Below the pieces are notes generated by a model. It did no database searches and was not told where the DNA came from. It worked only from the letters and a program-made list of their open reading frames with translations. DNA of 22,038 nucleotides, taken from a virus. The position numbers and the translations under genes were made by a program. Shown here in pieces: positions 684-19,575 of this stretch. The stretch covers positions 1 through 22,038 of the IMG/VR virus record IMGVR_UViG_3300028829_003367. One strand, 5' to 3'. Numbering within the stretch: the stretch's first letter is position 1; the number at the start of each line of letters is the position of its first letter.

Positions 684-1346
684 ATGACACAGGTCAAACT
701 AATTTCTTATAGTAAAGCACCAGACGAACTAGGGCTAGACGATTGTCAAGAACTAATTGCCTACTGTGCTAGAGTAAGTAATCCAGCTAATCAAATGAAT
801 AGCGAAACTAGTGAAAAACTAATTAAGTACTTGATCAAACATGCTCACTGGTCACCATTAGAAATGGTAAGCGCATGTTTAGAAATTAATACCACTCGCG
901 ATATTGCTCATCAAATTGTAAGACATAGAAGTTTTGCTTTTCAGGAGTTTAGTCAACGTTATGCTAACCCAGACGAACAAGGCGATATGTTTGAATATAG
1001 TGAAGCACGTTTACAAGATGAAAAGAATAGACAAAATTCAATTGATGTAGACGACAAAAAACTACAATTAGATTGGTTACATGCTCAGATGAGAATTGCT
1101 GTATTAGCTAAAAAAGAGTATGATTGGGCAATAAAAAAGGGCATTGCTAAAGAACAAGCCCGTAAAGTACTACCGGAAGGTATTACTAAGACAAGACTGT
1201 ACATGAACGGCACATTGCGTAGTTGGATACATTATATTGAACTTCGTGGTGCTAACGGTACACAAAAAGAGCATATGGACATTGCTCATGCTTGCGCTAA
1301 GGTTATTTCCGAAATCTTTCCGTTGGCACAGGACTTGAATAACTAA
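684..1346 (+). CDS. thyX: Flavin-dependent thymidylate synthase ThyX
   Basis: ThyX makes dTMP from dUMP using FAD, NADPH and methylene-tetrahydrofolate. The signature RHRX7S is complete: RHRSFAFQEFS at residues 80-90 (counting from the ATG at 684), followed by QRY. An upstream HWSPLE segment (about 55-60) matches the conserved HxSPxE region, although the His usual after the Glu is Met here. The later ARKVLP, the YMNGTLRSWIHYIELR helix and TQKEHMDIA correspond to the conserved dUMP/FAD-binding C-terminal half. Length (220 aa) is normal for the family. Two ATGs are adjacent at 681 and 684. GAAGGA at 672-677 lies 3 nt before the first and 6 nt before the second, so 684 is preferred. Phages carry thyX to supply thymidine during replication. 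The last 44 nt overlap the radical SAM gene on the other strand. Confidence 0.95.
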   Translation: MTQVKLISYSKAPDELGLDDCQELIAYCARVSNPANQMNSETSEKLIKYLIKHAHWSPLEMVSACLEINTTRDIAHQIVRHRSFAFQEFSQRYANPDEQGDMFEYSEARLQDEKNRQNSIDVDDKKLQLDWLHAQMRIAVLAKKEYDWAIKKGIAKEQARKVLPEGITKTRLYMNGTLRSWIHYIELRGANGTQKEHMDIAHACAKVISEIFPLAQDLNN

Positions 1347-2718
1347 CACACTCGTTATAAAAATCTTCTAATTCGGGGAACGTTTCTAAAAAGTTCGTTC
1401 CTCGTCTTTTATCATATTCATCTACAAACTTACTAAAGTCAGCTCTATGATTGATTAATTCAAGGTCTGTAAAACGGTTAGATTCTACCCATTTAATTAC
1501 ACGTTCCCATTTTGTGATGTCAGTATCGTTAAATTTGGATAGGTTAAAATTTGAATGATTGCTTTTCATAAACTCTAAACAGTCATACATTTTATCCAAA
1601 GTAGCATCATCAAGTATCTGTAAACTAAGATGTTTTGGCTCTAATAAGTACGGAGTGTCTATTGTAAAGCGTTTGTGTGTTAAGGTGTTATATTTGTGCT
1701 TCCACTCCAGTATCCGCGCTAGTAGACCCTTAAAACGGTGCACAGACATGAAATTAACGGTGATCATAAGCCCGCATTGTGCTTGTGGTACAGCATTCAT
1801 AAACGTTTCAACGTTACGTTCCCAAAGATCAATATCCATTCCGCCTCGTATATATTCAGCTTGATCTCCCCAAGTATCAATGCTAGTAAACAACTGAAAT
1901 CGGTCAATCTTTTTCTGCTGTGTTAACACAGTAACTTTATCAATAAACTTGTTAAGATTACGTTGTGGAACACACATATTAGTGTTAACACTGAATTCTA
2001 AGTTTGGATTAGGATTATTTCTAATATACTCCATTACTTTAAAGACATTACTACTTAATAACGGTTCGCCGCCTGTAATTCTAAAAGTATGTAATTGAGG
2101 ATATACTTCAGGAAACCATTTCCAAAATGCGTCAATGTAAGGATTATTCTTTTCTTTAAAAATCCAATTTTCTCTGTTTTTATTATTAGCATGATATTGT
2201 CTGCGATTCTCACGTTGTTGTAACGGATAGTCGCCAAACTTATTAAATTCATTTTCCCAAGCACTACTGATACTAGGAGTACAATAAGCACACTTCATTT
2301 GACATTCATTACCAAAACTAACTTCTAAGTATTTAGGTGCTACATTGGCATCCCAGGGCATTGATTTAATTTTATCAATAGTACCTTTTTCCATCTCTTC
2401 AAACTCAGCACTACGAAAATGCCTATCGCTTAATGAACCAGAATCTTCTAAAGCCCAACAATAACTACACTCAGGAGGACGTTCATCATTTAACATCATT
2501 TGACGTTGTTTCTTTTTATATTCACTGTTGTGTAATGCGCTTGGGTTTTCCTTTAGTTCTTCTAAACTAACTTTTTGCATACCAGGATGGTAACAACTAT
2601 GATTGTCACCTGTGTGTAAGTGTATACTTACATGATTCCATTTTGCTGTACAAAAGCCTTTACCAATTTTAGTAGCAATCTTTTTATATTTTTTGTTAGG
2701 AGATGGTTTCCAAAACAT
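1303..2718 (-). CDS. Radical SAM enzyme with N-terminal twitch/SPASM-like cluster domain
   Basis: The radical SAM core shows the cluster motif CX3CX2C as CQMKCAYC (Cys139, 143, 146) and the SAM-binding GGEP at 216-219, followed by a beta/alpha-barrel pattern (FSVNTN, LFTSID). Ahead of the core lie further cysteines: Cys23 in FCTAKW, Cys42 in SCYHP, and Cys84/Cys87 in CSYC, followed by ALEDSGSLSDR. An auxiliary iron-sulfur segment placed before rather than after the core is typical of the 'N-terminal twitch' radical SAM group, which is common in environmental phages and surface-glycan loci. The substrate cannot be read from the sequence. GAGGA at 2728-2732 precedes the ATG by 9 nt, and the start shares one base with the upstream stop. 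It is the last gene of the glycosyltransferase run, so modification of a sugar, peptide or glycosylated virion component is a reasonable but unproven role. Confidence 0.85.
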   Translation of the reverse strand: MFWKPSPNKKYKKIATKIGKGFCTAKWNHVSIHLHTGDNHSCYHPGMQKVSLEELKENPSALHNSEYKKKQRQMMLNDERPPECSYCWALEDSGSLSDRHFRSAEFEEMEKGTIDKIKSMPWDANVAPKYLEVSFGNECQMKCAYCTPSISSAWENEFNKFGDYPLQQRENRRQYHANNKNRENWIFKEKNNPYIDAFWKWFPEVYPQLHTFRITGGEPLLSSNVFKVMEYIRNNPNPNLEFSVNTNMCVPQRNLNKFIDKVTVLTQQKKIDRFQLFTSIDTWGDQAEYIRGGMDIDLWERNVETFMNAVPQAQCGLMITVNFMSVHRFKGLLARILEWKHKYNTLTHKRFTIDTPYLLEPKHLSLQILDDATLDKMYDCLEFMKSNHSNFNLSKFNDTDITKWERVIKWVESNRFTDLELINHRADFSKFVDEYDKRRGTNFLETFPELEDFYNECVSYSSPVPTERFRK

Positions 2719-8100: not shown

Positions 8101-8108
8101 TATTTATA
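8101..8108 (-). promoter_or_regulatory. T4-type late promoter of the 424-aa virion gene
   Basis: TATAAATA on the - strand, an exact match to the T4 late promoter -10 element, 24 nt before the ATG at 8076. Transcription should start about 6 nt downstream, near 8095, leaving a leader of about 19 nt containing GAGGAA. Bases 3-5 of the octamer are the TAA stop of fibre gene E. Confidence 0.8.
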
Positions 8109-9561
8109 CTTTAAGTACACACTCAATTAATTTTTCTTCTGGATTAGAACTGCTTTCAAGAGCAATCCCAACCATTTGATAATGTAACAACACAGAAGTC
8201 CATTTTGCTGTTCCTTGGCTTGAAACATAAACTGGTTGTCCTTTTGTAATTGGACCTACAACACGCACTGGAACCCGTCCTTTTAAGCCAATTGCTTGGC
8301 CATCTATTTCGCTGTTCATTAAGTATGCTGGTTCTGCTGATATAACACCTATCGGAAACCCTACATCAGTACATGCTTGTGCTTCATGACTTTCTGTACC
8401 TATCATCATTACTGTGCCAATTGGATACGTTTTATCAGTTGTATATTTTTCTGCTAAATCGGCGTACTTGGCCGCTGAAGCAACTCCGTTAAAAAATCTA
8501 GCATCAACATCGCCGCCAATACTACGCAGTACAACAGTGTTAGGATTTTTATTAACATCTAATACCTTACCATCTATCCTTTGAGTATCTGTTGACTTAC
8601 CGTCAAATAATATAGCACTAATTGTACCAGTTGCTGAACGAGTTGGTACTGTACTAAAACCTGGAACATGTACATCACTAGGATCTAAATTTGTTAATTT
8701 GTTTGCCGTAATTGCTGATGCTGCCAGTCCATTTAGTGAACCAACAAATTGTCCTGTAAATTGTTGTGCTGTAAATTGTTGTGTTGCTTGATCAAATATT
8801 TTAGTTGTAGTAGAAGGACTTGTTTGTGCGTATAAGTCGCCTGTAACATCGCCTATAACATTACCGTGAACGTCTCCAACTAATTCACCTTTTAAGTTTT
8901 CTGACCATATGTTCTTAAACTTACGTGATTCTAATCCAAGATTTACTAGCCCAGTTGCTCCGGGATATATTGAATTTAAACTATCTGAATCAGTAACAAA
9001 TGCTTGCTGTCTACTAAATGTTAAAAAATCCAACTTATCTGTAGGTTGAGTAGGATTACTTGATGAAATAGTAATCTTTCCATTAACTTGATTTTCAATT
9101 GCTGGATTTTGATCACTATTGATATAAATTTTTAATGCCTTAACAGGATTACCAACAGTAAAGCCTAAGTCAGCAAACGACTGAGCAGTTGTAAATCCTT
9201 CTGAACCGTCTGTTCTAACAAATCTAGTTTGATCAAGCCCGCCTAATTTCTCTGCGTTACTTGCTGTACCAAAGAATCTAAAGCCAGCACTATCACTAAT
9301 ACCAGTTGTACCATTTACACTGTTTAATGTAATACCTTTTTTAATTTGACGGCCGGTTTCACTAAATCCTGCGAGTGTATTTGAACTATCTAGTGTATAA
9401 TCATCATCATTACTAAACACTGCTGTAGTAATACCGCCAACAACAGCACGTAATATAACATGTGAAGTGTTATTATTGTCTTTTACTACTTCAGTAACAA
9501 TCTGTGATGTACCAAATCCTGGTGCGCTTTGTGGACCAATCAATACAAAGTTAGATCCGTT
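8104..9561 (-). CDS. Tail fibre E, C-terminal part (continues in frame after the amber codon)
   Basis: 485 sense codons directly follow the TAG in the same frame. They contain the third fibre module (LIGPQSAPGFG, a beta section, SDAGFRFFGTASNAEKLGG, then RFVRTDGSEGF), a glycine-every-four section (GELVGDVHGNVIGDVTGDL) and a C-terminal domain from about AEKYTTDKTYPIGTV to the end, with GVISAEPAYLMNSE and LKGRVPVRVVGPITKGQ. That last domain resembles a beta-rich C-terminal domain common in marine phage fibres; I am not certain of its family. The only early start is a TTG at 9541-9543 without a spaced Shine-Dalgarno, and the next methionines lie around 375 codons further on, so independent translation is unlikely. 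The intact frame argues against an old pseudogene. Without readthrough this part is not made. Confidence 0.75.
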   Translation of the reverse strand, partial: NGSNFVLIGPQSAPGFGTSQIVTEVVKDNNNTSHVILRAVVGGITTAVFSNDDDYTLDSSNTLAGFSETGRQIKKGITLNSVNGTTGISDSAGFRFFGTASNAEKLGGLDQTRFVRTDGSEGFTTAQSFADLGFTVGNPVKALKIYINSDQNPAIENQVNGKITISSSNPTQPTDKLDFLTFSRQQAFVTDSDSLNSIYPGATGLVNLGLESRKFKNIWSENLKGELVGDVHGNVIGDVTGDLYAQTSPSTTTKIFDQATQQFTAQQFTGQFVGSLNGLAASAITANKLTNLDPSDVHVPGFSTVPTRSATGTISAILFDGKSTDTQRIDGKVLDVNKNPNTVVLRSIGGDVDARFFNGVASAAKYADLAEKYTTDKTYPIGTVMMIGTESHEAQACTDVGFPIGVISAEPAYLMNSEIDGQAIGLKGRVPVRVVGPITKGQPVYVSSQGTAKWTSVLLHYQMVGIALESSSNPEEKLIECVLKV

Positions 9562-9564
9562 CTA
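9562..9564 (-). other. In-frame amber (TAG) codon inside tail fibre E
   Basis: TAG replaces an aromatic codon that is conserved in the four paralogous fibres. A single G-to-A change from TGG (Trp, as in fibres A and D) would create it. Both flanks are in one frame. It is either suppressed or read through, a recent nonsense mutation, or an assembly error. Confidence 0.85.
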
Positions 9565-9909
9565 AGCACTTAACTGATTTGTTTGACTATCATACCATAA
9601 GTCACCTTGAGAAAGTCCTACTGGTGGGCTTGCGCCAATTTCAGCGCCACTTGCTGTTCTAAAACGTCTACCGTCATAAAATTTAAGTTTTAAATTGTTT
9701 GTATCAAACCAAACTTGGCCGCTTACTGGTCTTTCAGGTTCAACACTATTAGAAAAACTTTCAAGTAGATGTAAAAAGTTTTCGTTTTGTACTTCACCGT
9801 AGCCGCTAAAATTTCTACCAACTAATTTTAAATCAGTTGTGTTATCAATAGTACCGTCTGCTACGCTTACTAAAAATGTTCCGTTATATTTGTCTACTTG
9901 ATATGCCAT
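9562..9909 (-). CDS. Tail fibre E, N-terminal part ending at an in-frame amber codon
   Basis: 115 codons encoding the conserved fibre N-terminus: MAYQVDKYNG, DLKLVGRNFSGYGEVQNENF, LHLLESF, then GQVWFDTNNLKLKFYDG and a second copy of that element, GDLWYDSQTNQL. It stops at TAG (9562-9564), in the middle of this second element. In the paralogues that position is W in A and D, Y in C and F in B. After the TAG the same frame continues with NGSNFVLIGPQ, matching NGTDFELIGPE in fibre D, so this is the first part of one 601-codon gene and not a complete short protein by design. The late promoter at 9929-9936 and GGGA at 9915-9918 precede it, so it should be transcribed well. A truncated stub that still contains the presumed attachment domain would be the product without readthrough. 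Confidence 0.8.
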   Translation of the reverse strand: MAYQVDKYNGTFLVSVADGTIDNTTDLKLVGRNFSGYGEVQNENFLHLLESFSNSVEPERPVSGQVWFDTNNLKLKFYDGRRFRTASGAEIGASPPVGLSQGDLWYDSQTNQLSA

Positions 9910-9928
9910 GTTTTTCCCGCTCTATACG

Positions 9929-9936
9929 TATTTATT
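9929..9936 (-). promoter_or_regulatory. T4-type late promoter of tail fibre E
   Basis: AATAAATA on the - strand, matching the marine T4-like late consensus NATAAATA, 19 nt before the ATG at 9909. The predicted start of transcription is near 9923. Bases 3-5 are the TAA stop of the 156-aa gene, the same phase as at 8101 and 19576. Confidence 0.75.
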
Positions 9937-10402
9937 CAAACTCTTTAACTGTAGCAATATGAGCATTATCGTCTGCTTGCGATACAAACGTGTATGCCGC
10001 TGTATTTGTCGAATATGCTGTTACTTTCTCGTCTAAGTTTGTTTTTGCCGAGTCAATAAATGCTTTCATTGCTGTGAATGCTTCTGTATTAGGTACATCT
10101 GACGCATCTAACATCTCAATAATTATGTTTAACTGCTTGTGTATTGGATATTGCTCTAAAACTTTCACATTTGTGTTAAACTTTAGTGCTGATTCTGTAA
10201 CTACAGGCTTGTCAGATTTACTTTGAACGCTTCCTGTATCATAATCACCATTCCAATAATCGCCATTCTCATTGTCCATATCAACTGATTTGATATTAAA
10301 CTTTTCAGTATCAATATAAGATGTGTCTTGATCTTTATCCATCATGGCAATAAGGACACCATTAGACTTCATAAAGATTAATTTTTTAGTTTCTATTGCC
10401 AT
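9932..10402 (-). CDS. Unknown protein in the fibre array, possible fibre-assembly factor
   Basis: A 156-aa acidic protein. The N-terminal half is beta-like (KKLIFMKSNGVLIAMMD, then YIDTEKFNIKSVDMDNENGDYWNGDY); the C-terminal half looks helical (QYPIHKQLNIIIEMLD, AFTAMKAFIDSAKTNLDEKVTAY), where the last part reads like a coiled coil. Such a beta-then-helical build and a position directly before a fibre gene are reminiscent of phage tail-fibre assembly proteins, but I see no diagnostic motif and treat the role as unknown. GGAG at 10409-10412 (inside GGGGAGA) is 6 nt before the ATG, and only one base separates it from the oxygenase gene, so the two are co-expressed. Its stop lies within the late promoter for fibre E. 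Confidence 0.72.
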   Translation of the reverse strand: MAIETKKLIFMKSNGVLIAMMDKDQDTSYIDTEKFNIKSVDMDNENGDYWNGDYDTGSVQSKSDKPVVTESALKFNTNVKVLEQYPIHKQLNIIIEMLDASDVPNTEAFTAMKAFIDSAKTNLDEKVTAYSTNTAAYTFVSQADDNAHIATVKEFE

Positions 10403-10403
10403 T

Positions 10404-10895
10404 TTATTCTCCCCACGCCAGCACTAGGCTGTACTTTGGTCTTTCATCTTTACCTATTTGTGTTACTTCATGTTCTAAATCAATTGGCATGTTAACAACA
10501 GCACCCGGTACTTCATCTACTAAGTATCCAGTTCCATCATGGTCATACCATTTAAAATGCGGTTTATCACTTTGTAAAAATACTAATTTAAATTTCCAGT
10601 AACTTCCAATTGAATCTTTGTGACGCGGAAGATGATCTCCTGGATCATATCTATTAAGTGTTACGCTATGTACAAAGTTTTTATCTTCTGGAATAGTTTT
10701 CCAAATAGCATCTTGTAAATCATCAGGCATGTTAAAATGAAACATACTTTTCATATTACTCGATCCGTACTTTGTTTTAAACTCAAAAGCATCGCCGTCA
10801 CGACGATTTGAAAATTTGTATGAATACTTTTCTGCTAACTCTACAATTTCATTTGGGTTAGAGCAATAATTTTCTGTAAGACTAACCTGAGACAT
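10404..10895 (-). CDS. 2-oxoglutarate/Fe(II)-dependent oxygenase
   Basis: A 163-aa protein with the complete 2OG-Fe(II) oxygenase facial triad on a double-stranded beta-helix pattern: HxD as His92-Lys-Asp94 in LPRHKDS, the distal His142 in LEHEVTQI, and the co-substrate residues Arg152 and Ser156 in RPKYSLVLAW. These enzymes hydroxylate proteins, nucleobases or small molecules using O2 and 2-oxoglutarate; T4-like cyanophages often carry several. The substrate here is unknown. The frame is open to an ATG at 10928, but that one lacks a spaced ribosome site and would overlap fibre D by 47 nt. The ATG at 10895 overlaps by 14 nt and is preferred, though its GGA (10899-10901) is close. Position between fibre genes D and the 156-aa gene makes a fibre protein a candidate substrate; that is inference. 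Confidence 0.85.
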   Translation of the reverse strand: MSQVSLTENYCSNPNEIVELAEKYSYKFSNRRDGDAFEFKTKYGSSNMKSMFHFNMPDDLQDAIWKTIPEDKNFVHSVTLNRYDPGDHLPRHKDSIGSYWKFKLVFLQSDKPHFKWYDHDGTGYLVDEVPGAVVNMPIDLEHEVTQIGKDERPKYSLVLAWGE

Positions 10896-12666
10896 ATATC
10901 CAACTATTCCCTGCTTGATTAACTTCATAAATTAAATTATCGTTCCTTGTAGGATTTGAAACTGTTGTAGTGATATTCACGCCACTAACAGATGTATAAC
11001 CAATCCAACTAGAATAAGTTAATGCCCCTGTTGAACTAACATTTTGATTAGTACTTGCTATATAAGCTCTAGTGCCTGTTTCAAAGTTGCTTACCGGTGC
11101 TAGTGTATTAAGCATGTAGGCAACTGATCCAGGACCGGATGATGTTTCGTTTAACCCTCGTGTATCCAAACTAAAGAATATTGATCTGCTTCTAATAGCA
11201 TTGTTTACATAACCAACTGTTGCCGCATGATCATTAAGTGTTGGAGTGGCAGTAATTGTTAAGTTACCTACCATCGTATCTCCAGTTTTGCTAACTTTCG
11301 ATGTATCTGTTACTGTAACGTTTTGACTTCCATCAAATACAACTCCGTTAATTTGAGGAGTTCCTATGAACTTGGTTGCTGTACTAGCGTTACCGTTAAA
11401 TGTTCCATACCAATCTTTTGTATTGCCGTTGTACGCAACACTAGCATCTGTAGCAAAAATGTCACCTTGGAAATCACCTATAACTCTATTAACTACTGTA
11501 AGCGTGTTAGTATCAATGTTAGTAATAGTAGCGTTTGTACCTGTAAACGTTTTTGTACTTGCTTCATACACAAAGTTGTTAGCACTATCTTTAATGTTAC
11601 CTTTTAGGTCACCAACCATTGTACCGCTAATTTCATCTGTTAACTTGTCAACTAATGTAAGACCGCTATCACCTACTACATTACCATTAAGTGTCGATTG
11701 TATAGTGTCGGAATAAATTTCTCTAGTGTGTAATTCTCTATAACGCAACCCACTTGATCCAATGTTGAATCTGTTTGTAACACCCGGAAGCATTCCTACA
11801 TTTGAAAATATAGAAATATCATCTTCTATAGCACCTGTTTTAATTCTTACTCTAATATCATTACCAATACTGTTTTCGATAATACCTTGAGTACCGTTGT
11901 CAACAGCAATTCTTAAATCATTATCAGTTCCAATAGTTAATCCAGCATCGTCGTAAGTTGAACCACCTGGTGATCTAAGAACAAAGTTAGTGACATCCTT
12001 ACCATCAAACTTCATTGTATCACTTGCTGTACCCCAGAATCTATGATCAGAGGAAGTTATTCCTGAAACTGGTGTGTTAACCAGTGTTATGCCTTTCTTA
12101 ATAGTAGTAAAACCAGTAACACTTTCAATAATACCTGTTACAAATTCGTCATCTGAAATAATACCAATAATAGTATTATCAATAACAATCTTTACAACAC
12201 CATGGGCAATATTACTATCATCACGTATAACTGCTGAAGTAAGTTTTGTTTCAGCAAAACCTGTTGCTCTCTCAGGACCAATAAGTTCAAAATCTGTTCC
12301 ATTCCAAACATTAATTTGGCTACTACCAGTATTGTACCATAAGTTGCCTGTGTCTTTAGTTTGAAGTCCTGTTGGAACTGTAGAACTTACATCACTAACA
12401 GTAAGTCCCCTCCATTTATTATCAGTGCTTCTAAATTTAATTTGATTGTTTAGATCGTCATACCAAAGTTGACCTGGTATGCTTTTTCTAGGCTGTGTAT
12501 CACCTCTAAAATTTTCTAATAAGTGTAAGAAGTTTTCATTAAGTATTTCACCATAGCCGGCATAATTTTTACCAACAAATTTTAAATCAGTTGACGAGCT
12601 GTCAACTGTTTGGTCAGGTACTGATGTTTGAAGTACCCCGTTGTATCTGTTTACAATATATGCCAT
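10882..12666 (-). CDS. Tail fibre D
   Basis: 594 aa with the shared fibre plan. Residues 1-50 contain NRYNG, STDLKFVGKNYAGYGE and NENFLHLLENF; two copies of the GxLWYxxxxxQxxxW element follow (GQLWYDDLNNQIKF and GNLWYNTGSSQINVWNG); then LIGPERATGFAE, a GITLV section and RFWGTASDTMKFDG up to about residue 225. The variable part has the cassette GTFNGNASTATKF, INGVVFDGSQNVTVTD and GDTMVGNL, then a terminal domain from RSRSIFFSLDTRG through NFETGTRAYIAS to YEVNQAGNSWIYVSG. That last domain is shared with fibre B. GGAG at 12673-12676 is 6 nt before the ATG. The gene ends with TAG and a TAA follows seven codons later. It probably forms a trimeric receptor-binding fibre on the tail; receptor unknown. 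Confidence 0.82.
   Translation of the reverse strand: MAYIVNRYNGVLQTSVPDQTVDSSSTDLKFVGKNYAGYGEILNENFLHLLENFRGDTQPRKSIPGQLWYDDLNNQIKFRSTDNKWRGLTVSDVSSTVPTGLQTKDTGNLWYNTGSSQINVWNGTDFELIGPERATGFAETKLTSAVIRDDSNIAHGVVKIVIDNTIIGIISDDEFVTGIIESVTGFTTIKKGITLVNTPVSGITSSDHRFWGTASDTMKFDGKDVTNFVLRSPGGSTYDDAGLTIGTDNDLRIAVDNGTQGIIENSIGNDIRVRIKTGAIEDDISIFSNVGMLPGVTNRFNIGSSGLRYRELHTREIYSDTIQSTLNGNVVGDSGLTLVDKLTDEISGTMVGDLKGNIKDSANNFVYEASTKTFTGTNATITNIDTNTLTVVNRVIGDFQGDIFATDASVAYNGNTKDWYGTFNGNASTATKFIGTPQINGVVFDGSQNVTVTDTSKVSKTGDTMVGNLTITATPTLNDHAATVGYVNNAIRSRSIFFSLDTRGLNETSSGPGSVAYMLNTLAPVSNFETGTRAYIASTNQNVSSTGALTYSSWIGYTSVSGVNITTTVSNPTRNDNLIYEVNQAGNSWIYVSG
11260..11430 (-). repeat. Fibre cassette shared by genes C and D (copy in D)
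   Basis: Encodes GTFNGNASTATKF, INGVVFDGSQNVTVTD and SKTGDTMVGNL in fibre D, aligned without gaps to the copy in fibre C at 13435-13600. Confidence 0.65.
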
Positions 12667-12680
12667 TTATCGCTCCGTTA
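12654..12680 (-). repeat. Duplicated fibre leader, copy before fibre D
   Basis: TAACGGAGCG directly followed by ATAAATGGCATAT: the fibre B leader minus four bases. This gives GGAG a 6-nt spacing to the ATG against 10 nt in B, which may make D the better translated of the two. Confidence 0.7.
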
Positions 12681-13034
12681 CCTTATTGCCCTAGCGGCAT
12701 CTTCTCTTAATTGTTCTAATGCTAGATATTCGTCTTGTGTTAAACTAGTAGTAATACCTAACGCTTTTTCTCTCGTATGTCTTAGTACTTTCCAATCTGT
12801 ACTACTTAAAAATTCTAAATGTTCAATGTTAGCTTCAACATCTTCTACTGCTTGTAAATCAGAAGCAGGTTTCAGTACAACATTTCTATCGTCAACGTTA
12901 AAATAGTATCTTCCTCCGTTGATCAAATCCATGCTAATATTATCAATCTCAACTACTTCAACACCAGCAGGAACGTTCGGCTGATAATTTAAAATTGTTG
13001 TTACTGTGCTATTTTCTATACAAACGTAATACAT
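12678..13034 (-). CDS. Tail-fibre assembly chaperone-like protein
   Basis: 118 aa. The N-terminal half is beta-like (MYYVCIENSTVTTILNYQPNVPAGVEVVEI, then GGRYYFNVDDR). The C-terminal half carries STDWKVLRHTREKALG, SLTQDEYLALEQLREDAARAI: the 'tDWkvlRh.....g..tsLt..Ey..L...R..a' pattern typical of caudoviral tail-assembly chaperones, which are encoded next to the fibre they help fold. GGAGT at 13039-13043 lies within the end of fibre gene C, 4 nt before the ATG, with one base between the genes, so it is translated together with C. The stop TAA is followed by the leader of fibre D. It could serve one neighbour or all five fibres. The assignment rests on motif and context. Confidence 0.65.
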   Translation of the reverse strand: MYYVCIENSTVTTILNYQPNVPAGVEVVEIDNISMDLINGGRYYFNVDDRNVVLKPASDLQAVEDVEANIEHLEFLSSTDWKVLRHTREKALGITTSLTQDEYLALEQLREDAARAIR

Positions 13035-18913: not shown

Positions 18914-19543
18914 TTATACCTCAGTAAATCCAGTTAGACTCTGTATTCTAACTGTGTAATCAATTTGAATTAATCTGTTTAATGATTTTTGAACAGGGTG
19001 AAACACAACATGAGTTAACAGTTTTCCTGTTGATGCTTTAAGTCCAAGCTCATCAAACACATATTGCCCATCCATATCAGCAGAGTTATCAAATGCTTCT
19101 TGTCCTTCTGGCTCACCATAATCTAATAAACACGAAACAACTACATCACTGTATGTTGCTCCTGTAACATGACGGACTTCCATTTTATTTCTAGTGTTAT
19201 CAGTATTTGTGGCAGAATTTTGATCAACAATCTTAGTATATGTTTGGTTATACAAACTTGAATCAGTACCGTTTGTGTTTGGTGTAAGGTATGTAATAAG
19301 TCCAGTTGGATCAACCACTGTACCTCCGTTACCAAAGCTCATTTCACTTATCCAGCCTACGCCTTGATTAGACAAGCTCTGTGCCATTGCAACACTAATG
19401 TTTTCATAGTGTATAGCATTACGCTTATCAACGTAAACTTCCTTTGTTTGAGGGTCAAAAATCTTAATATGCCCTTCAATCTGGAACCCGCCTTGCTCGT
19501 CGGGCTTTACATTTTCTGTTTGTTTTTTTGTGTTTTCTGCCAT
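18914..19543 (-). CDS. Conserved virion structural protein of T4-like marine phages
   Basis: 209 aa from the ATG at 19543. An upstream in-frame ATG (19573) sits at or before the expected transcription start of the late promoter at 19576-19583, so it should not be in the mRNA; this fixes the shorter start, although the ribosome site there (AGAGACGG) is modest. After a charged N-terminus come GHIKIFDPQTKEVYVDKRNA, NISVAMAQSL, EMSFGNGGTVVDPTGLITYL, NKMEVRHVTG, CLLDYGEPEGQEAFDN, YVFDELGLK, and the ending THVVFHPVQKSLNRLIQIDY plus TVRIQ. I recognise this series as a conserved structural protein of marine T4-like phages, encoded beside the fibres; its position in the virion is not known to me. It is followed by fibre A after two bases. 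Confidence 0.78.
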   Translation of the reverse strand: MAENTKKQTENVKPDEQGGFQIEGHIKIFDPQTKEVYVDKRNAIHYENISVAMAQSLSNQGVGWISEMSFGNGGTVVDPTGLITYLTPNTNGTDSSLYNQTYTKIVDQNSATNTDNTRNKMEVRHVTGATYSDVVVSCLLDYGEPEGQEAFDNSADMDGQYVFDELGLKASTGKLLTHVVFHPVQKSLNRLIQIDYTVRIQSLTGFTEV

Positions 19544-19575
19544 ATCCGTCTCTTTGAGTTTGTTATCTCTCATTG

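Follow-up and report, generated by a model that had tools for sequence, protein, structure and literature searches.

What a 2OG-Fe(II) oxygenase might act on when its gene lies inside an array of fibre genes is the question raised by a 22,038-nt stretch of viral DNA (IMG/VR record IMGVR_UViG_3300028829_003367; hereafter the window). The original prediction, read from the letters alone, placed such an enzyme of 163 aa at 10404–10895, with a start that overlaps the end of the neighbouring fibre gene. The coordinates are correct, with the gene, which we call OX, on the minus strand, and the length holds when counted from the ATG at 10895; an in-frame ATG upstream at 10928 would give an alternative product of 174 aa. 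OX also shares 14 bases (10882–10895) with the end of fibre D (10882–12666), as predicted, and a single base separates it from the downstream gene for a 156-aa protein, p156 (9932–10402). The OX gene at 10404–10895 is a real gene. The features of the locus are collected in Table 1.

Table 1. Features of the fibre array around OX, in coordinates of the window
Feature	Position	Strand	Basis
Downstream fibre, C-terminal piece, 479 aa	8104..9543	minus	ORF; comparison with relatives
Downstream fibre, N-terminal piece, 115 aa	9562..9909	minus	Fibre N-domain match
p156, 156-aa partner, putative fibre-assembly chaperone	9932..10402	minus	phrog_13209, model, OX neighbour
OX, 2OG-Fe(II) oxygenase-like gene, 163 aa	10404..10895	minus	ORF, residues, model, fold, conservation
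Fibre D, 594 aa, directly upstream of OX	10882..12666	minus	ORF; PHROG matches
Fibre D C-terminal tip domain, residues 491–594	10885..11196	minus	Alignment A5; match in L186/L187 fibres
Pro524 codon of fibre D (LxxLAP), candidate hydroxylation site	11095..11097	minus	Conservation in upstream fibres
118-aa protein behind fibre C	12678..13034	minus	Weak PHROG matches
Fibre C, 540 aa	13036..14658	minus	ORF; N-terminal domain common to jumbo-phage proteins
Fibre B, 669 aa	14691..16700	minus	ORF
Fibre A, 731 aa	16716..18911	minus	ORF

The AlphaFold model of OX (43 sequences; mean pLDDT 93.6, pTM 0.88) has the double-stranded beta-helix fold of the 2OG-Fe(II) oxygenase superfamily. It is matched by 390 PDB chains at a Foldseek E ≤ 0.001, and the best 50 of these 390 are, judging by their titles, 2OG oxygenases. 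The closest structure is PHD2 (3oui; VIA Z 15.5, rmsd 2.9, 146 aligned residues), followed by the Pseudomonas putida prolyl hydroxylase PPHD (4j25_F; Z 15.2, rmsd 3.2, 153 aligned), the Shewanella oxygenase 3dkq (Z 14.9), PIUC (14.8) and AlkB (14.6). Because all of these score nearly equally, the superfamily is clear and the subfamily is not; specifically, PHD2 and AlkB lie within one Z unit (15.5 vs 14.6), which is a tie, and the substrate cannot be read from the fold.

The residues His92, Asp94, His142, Arg152 and Ser156, which had been read as an HxD...H...RxxxS motif, are all confirmed in the translation. In an alignment of 43 OX sequences (the window protein and 42 of 50 representatives; alignment A3), the iron triad is almost invariant (His92 in 43/43; Asp94 in 42/43, with one E; His142 in 43/43), and members as little as 42% identical to the window protein still have it; the sole HxE member, L129, is 27% identical. 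Arg152 does not stand as the conserved 2OG ligand and is ruled out in this role, as its column holds R in only 15 of the 43 sequences (Q in 6, K in 5, D in 5, E in 3, N in 3, and others). In contrast, Lys154 is K in 42/43 and R in the remaining one, and Ser156 is S in 43/43. Because the Lys154 column is near-invariant while Arg152 varies, the 2-oxoglutarate-binding base is most likely Lys154, and the signature of OX, as read from the alignment, is HxD...H...KxS rather than HxD...H...RxxxS. PHD2 uses Arg as its 2OG-binding base, in contrast to the Lys of the marine OX family, and ten OX relatives from cultured phages, described below, have an Arg aligned by eye with Lys154 and lack the Ser two places on. 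The high pLDDT, the 390 fold matches and the retention of the triad in distant members indicate that the signature is more than chance, and OX is very probably an active 2OG oxygenase.

The window OX matched 0 families in Pfam and NCBIfam. PF13640 is matched by eight of the 43 OX members (best E 0.0038), and the OX relative of phage D6 scores 27.2 against a Pfam cut-off of 27; the shortfall lies with the Pfam model and does not count against the fold. In PHROGs, the window protein matches phrog_2297 ('DNA endonuclease') at 6.1e-4, and the same match is found in 28/43 members. A nuclease fold or catalytic motif was not found; the modelled window protein has the 2OG oxygenase fold. The label 'DNA endonuclease' stands in many records, including phiKZ gp137, 201phi2-1 gp222 and the Milchi protein (loci L133, L138 and L139). 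These proteins align with the 2OG oxygenase family and keep HxD...H...R, and the label is probably an error that spreads through automatic annotation. The depositor of phage Churi names its OX gene 2OG-Fe II oxygenase. OX was matched once in each of ten records, 22.6 to 364 kb long, that were searched from end to end, and a scan of bacterial genome contigs for OX homologues gave 17 pattern matches and no relative.

The original prediction would have failed had relatives carried the oxygenase away from fibre genes, and this check came out in its favour. IMG/VR scans fetched 81 contigs with OX as the query and, with p156, 21 contigs not among the 81. p156 lies within 60 bases of OX in 80/81 OX-fetched contigs, the exception (L078) ending 52 bases after OX, and OX adjoins p156 in 20/21 p156-fetched contigs, the exception (L108) beginning inside p156. 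The two genes are adjacent in 100/102 contigs altogether, both misses being contig ends. In addition, a gene with the N-terminal domain of the array fibres ends just upstream of OX in 76/81 and 18/20 contigs. Among the seven contigs without such a gene, five have an unlabelled upstream ORF of 342–631 aa (four cut by the contig start, the fifth that of L129) and two begin at or just before OX. A further N-domain fibre gene lies just downstream of p156 in 78/80 and 20/21 contigs, the misses being two contig ends and L129. Many contigs are near-identical: the 129 ORFs counted for each gene, which include contigs fetched twice, comprise 69 distinct OX and 67 distinct p156. Adjacency alone could reflect inherited synteny; the changes in gene order and genomic background described below argue against this, and we are nearly certain that OX, p156 and the fibre form a conserved functional module. 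The earlier step from gene coupling to hydroxylation of a fibre or of the 156-aa protein is thus partly supported, by the linkage to both genes; the RxxxS motif had been misassigned.

Fibre D matches phrog_14394 and phrog_15511 with its N-terminal domain; it also matches the tail fiber protein phrog_1833 at E 0.001, and its tip (~104 aa) contains LNTLAP (Pro524) and NPTRN (Pro572). Where the window has two fibre pieces downstream of p156, relatives have one ORF, of 594–605 aa in the closest groups; the window fibre at 8104–9909 carries a frame break, natural or from assembly. The 118-aa protein matches phrog_33112 (unknown function) at 8.4e-9, phrog_8716 (tail fiber protein) at 2.6e-5 and phrog_188 (tail fiber assembly protein) at 0.0041. 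These weak matches behind fibre C suggest that the array may hold two fibre/helper pairs, of which the 118-aa protein with fibre C would be the second. The array N-domain also occurs in jumbo phages such as CBB. Since CBB-type phages have this domain and OX queries match only Pseudomonas phages, the shaft does not appear to need OX. Further along the minus strand, p219 (phrog_11259; 18914–19573) is 44–52% identical to proteins of Phosso, Atu_ph07, 121Q, RaK2 and CBB. The T4-like frame in which the locus had been placed is therefore loose: its closest cultured kin by p219 are jumbo phages, Phosso, Atu_ph07, 121Q and RaK2 among them, which puts the window near the jumbo group rather than the classic T4-like cyanophages.

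p156 matches phrog_13209 at 1.5e-8, and in its model (pLDDT 89.2) the N-terminal half is beta and the C-terminal half helical. The fibre chaperone gp25 of phage Pam3 heads the PDB matches, but at a Foldseek E of 0.21, with a VIA Z of 5.2 over 69 residues (rmsd 3.8), values that make the likeness a lead. Neither the listed fold matches nor the PDB sequence search gave a significant chaperone match for p156, gp25 included. The secondary-structure layout is nevertheless alike: in the parts of the Pam3 report used here, gp24–gp25 (PDB 7YPX) is a fibre with a 162-aa partner whose N-domain is beta and whose C-domain is helical; the N-domain binds the distal part of the fibre, the helical domain trimerises, and gp25 was not detected in virions (PMC9608196). 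By analogy, we infer that p156 may be a Tfa/Pam3-gp25-like chaperone. A difference is that those parts of the report mention no oxygenase alongside gp24–gp25 (PMC9608196). The best viral model match for p156 is the 201-aa 201phi2-1 protein B3FJ83 (E 9.7e-6).

The fibre tip is found with the pair outside the array as well. A scan with a tip alignment built from the fibres beside OX (A5) gave 47 loci, with OX and p156 in 47/47 and the tip gene directly upstream of OX in 46. Because A5 derives from OX-side fibres and 43/47 of the contigs had already been found by the OX or p156 scans, the result serves more as a check of consistency than as independent sampling. Four contigs had escaped the earlier scans (L185, L186, L187 and L189); they carry a 364-aa fibre, OX and p156 as a plus-strand trio among minus-strand genes. 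The 364-aa fibre is without the array N-domain and matches array fibres only C-terminally, from residue 227 or later to residue 364. The profiles of p219, p800, GT252, rSAM and thyX found no match in these four contigs, and the scanned flanks in L186 hold ribonucleotide reductase and endolysin genes, both on the opposite strand, and a ferrochelatase gene. Among the features tested, only the C-terminal part of the fibre, OX and p156 are common to the trio contigs and the window array, and no other finding speaks as strongly for joint action of the three. The fibre tip, the chaperone-like protein and the oxygenase behave as a conserved, movable cassette. The p156 of the new background is closer to group 1 (0.37) than is group 2 p156 (0.29); unlike p156, OX does not track the fibre tip in sequence (0.52 vs 0.55), and that idea was not upheld. 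L186 also encodes, close to the trio but not in it, two 2OG oxygenases of a different family (phrog_81; 9732–10364 and 10820–11458, minus strand).

The pair extends to cultured phages. In tblastn searches of phage records, the window p156 gave no match and the window OX three matches only, so the link rests on profiles. Queries from Milchi and D6 matched 72 records each with OX, and 70 (Milchi) and 72 (D6) with the p156-like protein, all of them Pseudomonas phages. For OX, hhalign aligns the cultured with the marine profile at 97.9% (E 3.5e-13); the p156 profiles align at 99.3% (E 1.1e-20), and cross-family controls stay under 1%. Taken singly, ten cultured OX proteins match the marine profile at E 4.5e-19 to 2.4e-4 in ten-sequence searches, the weakest being the PhiPA3 protein, which is annotated short, and ten p156-like proteins match theirs at 9.3e-24 to 1.6e-14. 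Scans of viral contigs gave 0 loci with Milchi OX and two with phiKZ OX.

We opened ten regions (Astolliot, Milchi, D6, phiKZ, 201phi2-1, PhiPA3, Phabio, Noxifer, Psa21 and PS119XW), and in 10/10 the order is one or more fibre, tail or virion structural genes, the p156-like gene, OX and a third gene; the predicted linkage thus holds in cultured phages also. In Astolliot, the gene upstream of the pair is annotated as hypothetical and is the counterpart of the Milchi 'tail collar fiber protein'. Both Astolliot, an Otagovirus, and Milchi have baseplate, neck and terminase genes around the pair, in T4-like order. In phiKZ, the pair is gp136 (p156-like) and gp137 (OX), within gp131–gp138 and directly behind structural gp133–gp135, whose 201phi2-1 counterparts are annotated as mutual paralogues. 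The phiKZ arrangement differs from the window in its order (p156–OX rather than OX–p156), in the extra gp138, in fibres that are not detectably related, and in the annotation of gp137 as an endonuclease. Specifically, hhalign found no detectable homology between marine and phiKZ fibre tips (probability 0.17–0.28, the best of 20 shuffles giving 0.4–0.8), and a tip domain common to both was rejected. The 201phi2-1 paralogues gp216–220 are marked 'identified as virion protein by mass spectrometry' and gp221–223 are not so marked, which fits assembly factors; gp221 in this respect resembles Pam3 gp25. The third gene (phrog_14616) is gp138 in phiKZ (L138:10426–10914), with counterparts in L132–L134 and L139–L144. 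Its profile matches that of OX weakly near the second iron His (14%, E 0.0019), its single proteins match at 0.0019 to 0.73 with no HxD there by eye, and it is possibly a dead oxygenase-like paralogue, as far as these alignments tell.

Where in the tip might OX act? Among 66 distinct fibre ends upstream of OX (fetched via OX or p156), 42 match the tip profile and 24 do not. A single column is the same in 42/42 profile-matching fibres, that of the LxxLAP proline (Pro524 of fibre D); Pro572 is identical in 36/41 profile-matching upstream fibres. An earlier tip-proline count of 35/35 was discarded as biased, as the search patterns contained that proline or Pro572. LxxLAP occurs in 54/99 fibres directly upstream of OX (30/66 distinct, last 110 aa), in 32/288 other fibre ORFs and in 0/840 remaining plus-strand ORFs counted. 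We do not accept this enrichment as proof of the site, because homologous fibres are non-independent and the pattern is carried by phiKZ-type OX proteins, in which L..[LI]AP falls at a position that the OX model shows as the end of a helix. At the level of contigs, L..[LI]AP lies within the last 135 aa of at least one fibre in 82/102, and several of the 20 without it are short or retain the proline in a variant of the pattern. The proline is absent from L017, L018, L068, L080, L082 and other lineages: it is missing from the site in all seven distinct L017/L080-type fibres, and L068 has Ser. LxxLAP is the consensus of human HIF-alpha that PHD enzymes hydroxylate (PMC6235002), and the conserved proline of the neighbouring fibre tip stands in such a context. 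With the lineages that lack it taken into account, the LxxLAP proline is a tentative and rather doubtful candidate for the hydroxylation site.

Taken together, the recurrence of an oxygenase gene with a fibre gene and a helper gene in several kinds of phage suggests that phages chemically finish their fibre tips. The substrate of OX is probably a protein of the module, either the fibre or p156, and we lean slightly towards the fibre tip. The reading that we favour, with some reserve, is a cassette for fibre-tip maturation, in which the chaperone-like p156 presents the tip and OX hydroxylates it. OX and the fibre would be made from the same message; p156 would hold the fresh fibre chain by its C-terminal tip, where OX would use O2 and 2-oxoglutarate to hydroxylate a residue, in the likeliest case a proline, ahead of or during closure of the fibre trimer. 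The modified fibre would then enter the virion and the enzyme and chaperone would not; the effect of the modification would be a stiffer tip or adjusted receptor binding. The most specific form of this proposal, in which a HIF-hydroxylase-like phage enzyme hydroxylates the LxxLAP proline of a chaperone-delivered, receptor-binding fibre tip, and tip, chaperone and hydroxylase move as one cassette, phiKZ gp136/gp137 included, is a speculative one that we think more apt to fail than to hold.

OX might instead modify or regulate p156, with hydroxylation controlling the release or lifetime of the chaperone-like protein. Whichever the gene order, p156 lies next to OX and, in an alignment of 45 of 50 representatives (A4), its motif YPxHKQLNI is conserved, with Pro in 41/46 and Gln90 in 46/46 sequences; yet the motif proline is Ser in 5/46 and is replaced, as judged by eye, by Gln in the relatives from Astolliot and Milchi, and p156 varies more between groups than OX does, as expected if it follows the fibre tip. 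On balance this alternative is unlikely. Less probable still is that OX demethylates nucleic acids as AlkB does, or spends 2OG in auxiliary metabolism, with an incidental place in the fibre locus. AlkB has an RxxxxxR motif after the second iron His; although the AlkB chains trail PHD2 by less than one Z unit, the second Arg of this motif was not found in OX, where the window has K154...A160 and the consensus reads PKYSLVLxWG. Nitrogen-metabolism or DNA-repair roles have been proposed for cyanophage 2OG oxygenases, namely 2OG drawdown or repair, in the parts of that comparison used here (PMC3037559), but an incidental locus sits poorly with the adjacency of OX and p156 in all contigs except the two truncated at the pair, and with the recurrence of the trio in another background.

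A structural or assembly factor that retains the fold and metal site and acts by binding rather than catalysis would fit the small size of OX, its place in a structural cluster and the weak, HxD-less likeness of the third gene, phrog_14616. We consider it very improbable, as a triad and 2OG base that are near-invariant (K/R in 43/43 at the base) are hard to explain without catalysis, and the 201phi2-1 OX bears no virion-protein note. Hydroxylation followed by glycosylation through downstream genes was also weighed and is not our main reading, because L017, L018 and L073 keep the order fibre–OX–p156–fibre with thyX directly behind and are without glycosyltransferase-like genes in the part of each contig that was covered.

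The tip-maturation cassette can be set beside known hydroxylases. PHD2 and PPHD, the latter acting on EF-Tu, are the closest fold matches of OX and have the HxD...H triad in common with it; they differ in sequence (12–15% identity), OX has little beyond the core in its 163 aa, AlkB is tied with them, and the substrate of OX would instead be a virion fibre. A virus-encoded collagen prolyl hydroxylase with a fold related to that of OX is known in vCPH of Paramecium bursaria chlorella virus (5c5t_A; Z 14.1, rmsd 3.1, 140 aligned), which differs in belonging to a eukaryotic virus. To our knowledge, enzymatic modification of phage fibres has hardly been described. Among the matches listed for open-licence PMC, judged on titles and the starts of abstracts, none concerns a fibre-linked phage hydroxylase or the function of phiKZ gp136/gp137. 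In the parts used here, an overview of jumbo phages mentions 2OG enzymes that are AlkB-like or belong to gene clusters (PMC7824862), and the substrate is not known for many phage 2OG oxygenases, those of cyanophages among them (PMC3037559).

A fixed cassette of fibre, chaperone and oxygenase gives a concrete candidate substrate. What is new is the tip, chaperone-like protein and oxygenase as a movable cassette, and the reach of the oxygenase/helper pair to phiKZ, a laboratory phage that carries it under a misleading label. Hydroxylation of the fibre, if it occurs, would make infectivity dependent on oxygen and 2OG, and fibres produced recombinantly in the absence of OX could lack their proper finish. 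If the LxxLAP reading is true, the amounts of oxygen and 2-oxoglutarate in the host would determine how good the fibres of the next generation are.

At the other end of the window, the genes labelled by eye as glycosyltransferase-like form a run, and family searches with those that were scanned gave no credible match. The run ends with a Twitch-domain radical SAM gene (1303–2718, minus strand; NF033640, 327.8 bits against a cut-off of 170), which is convergent with thyX (681–1346, named by eye) and overlaps it by 44 bases.
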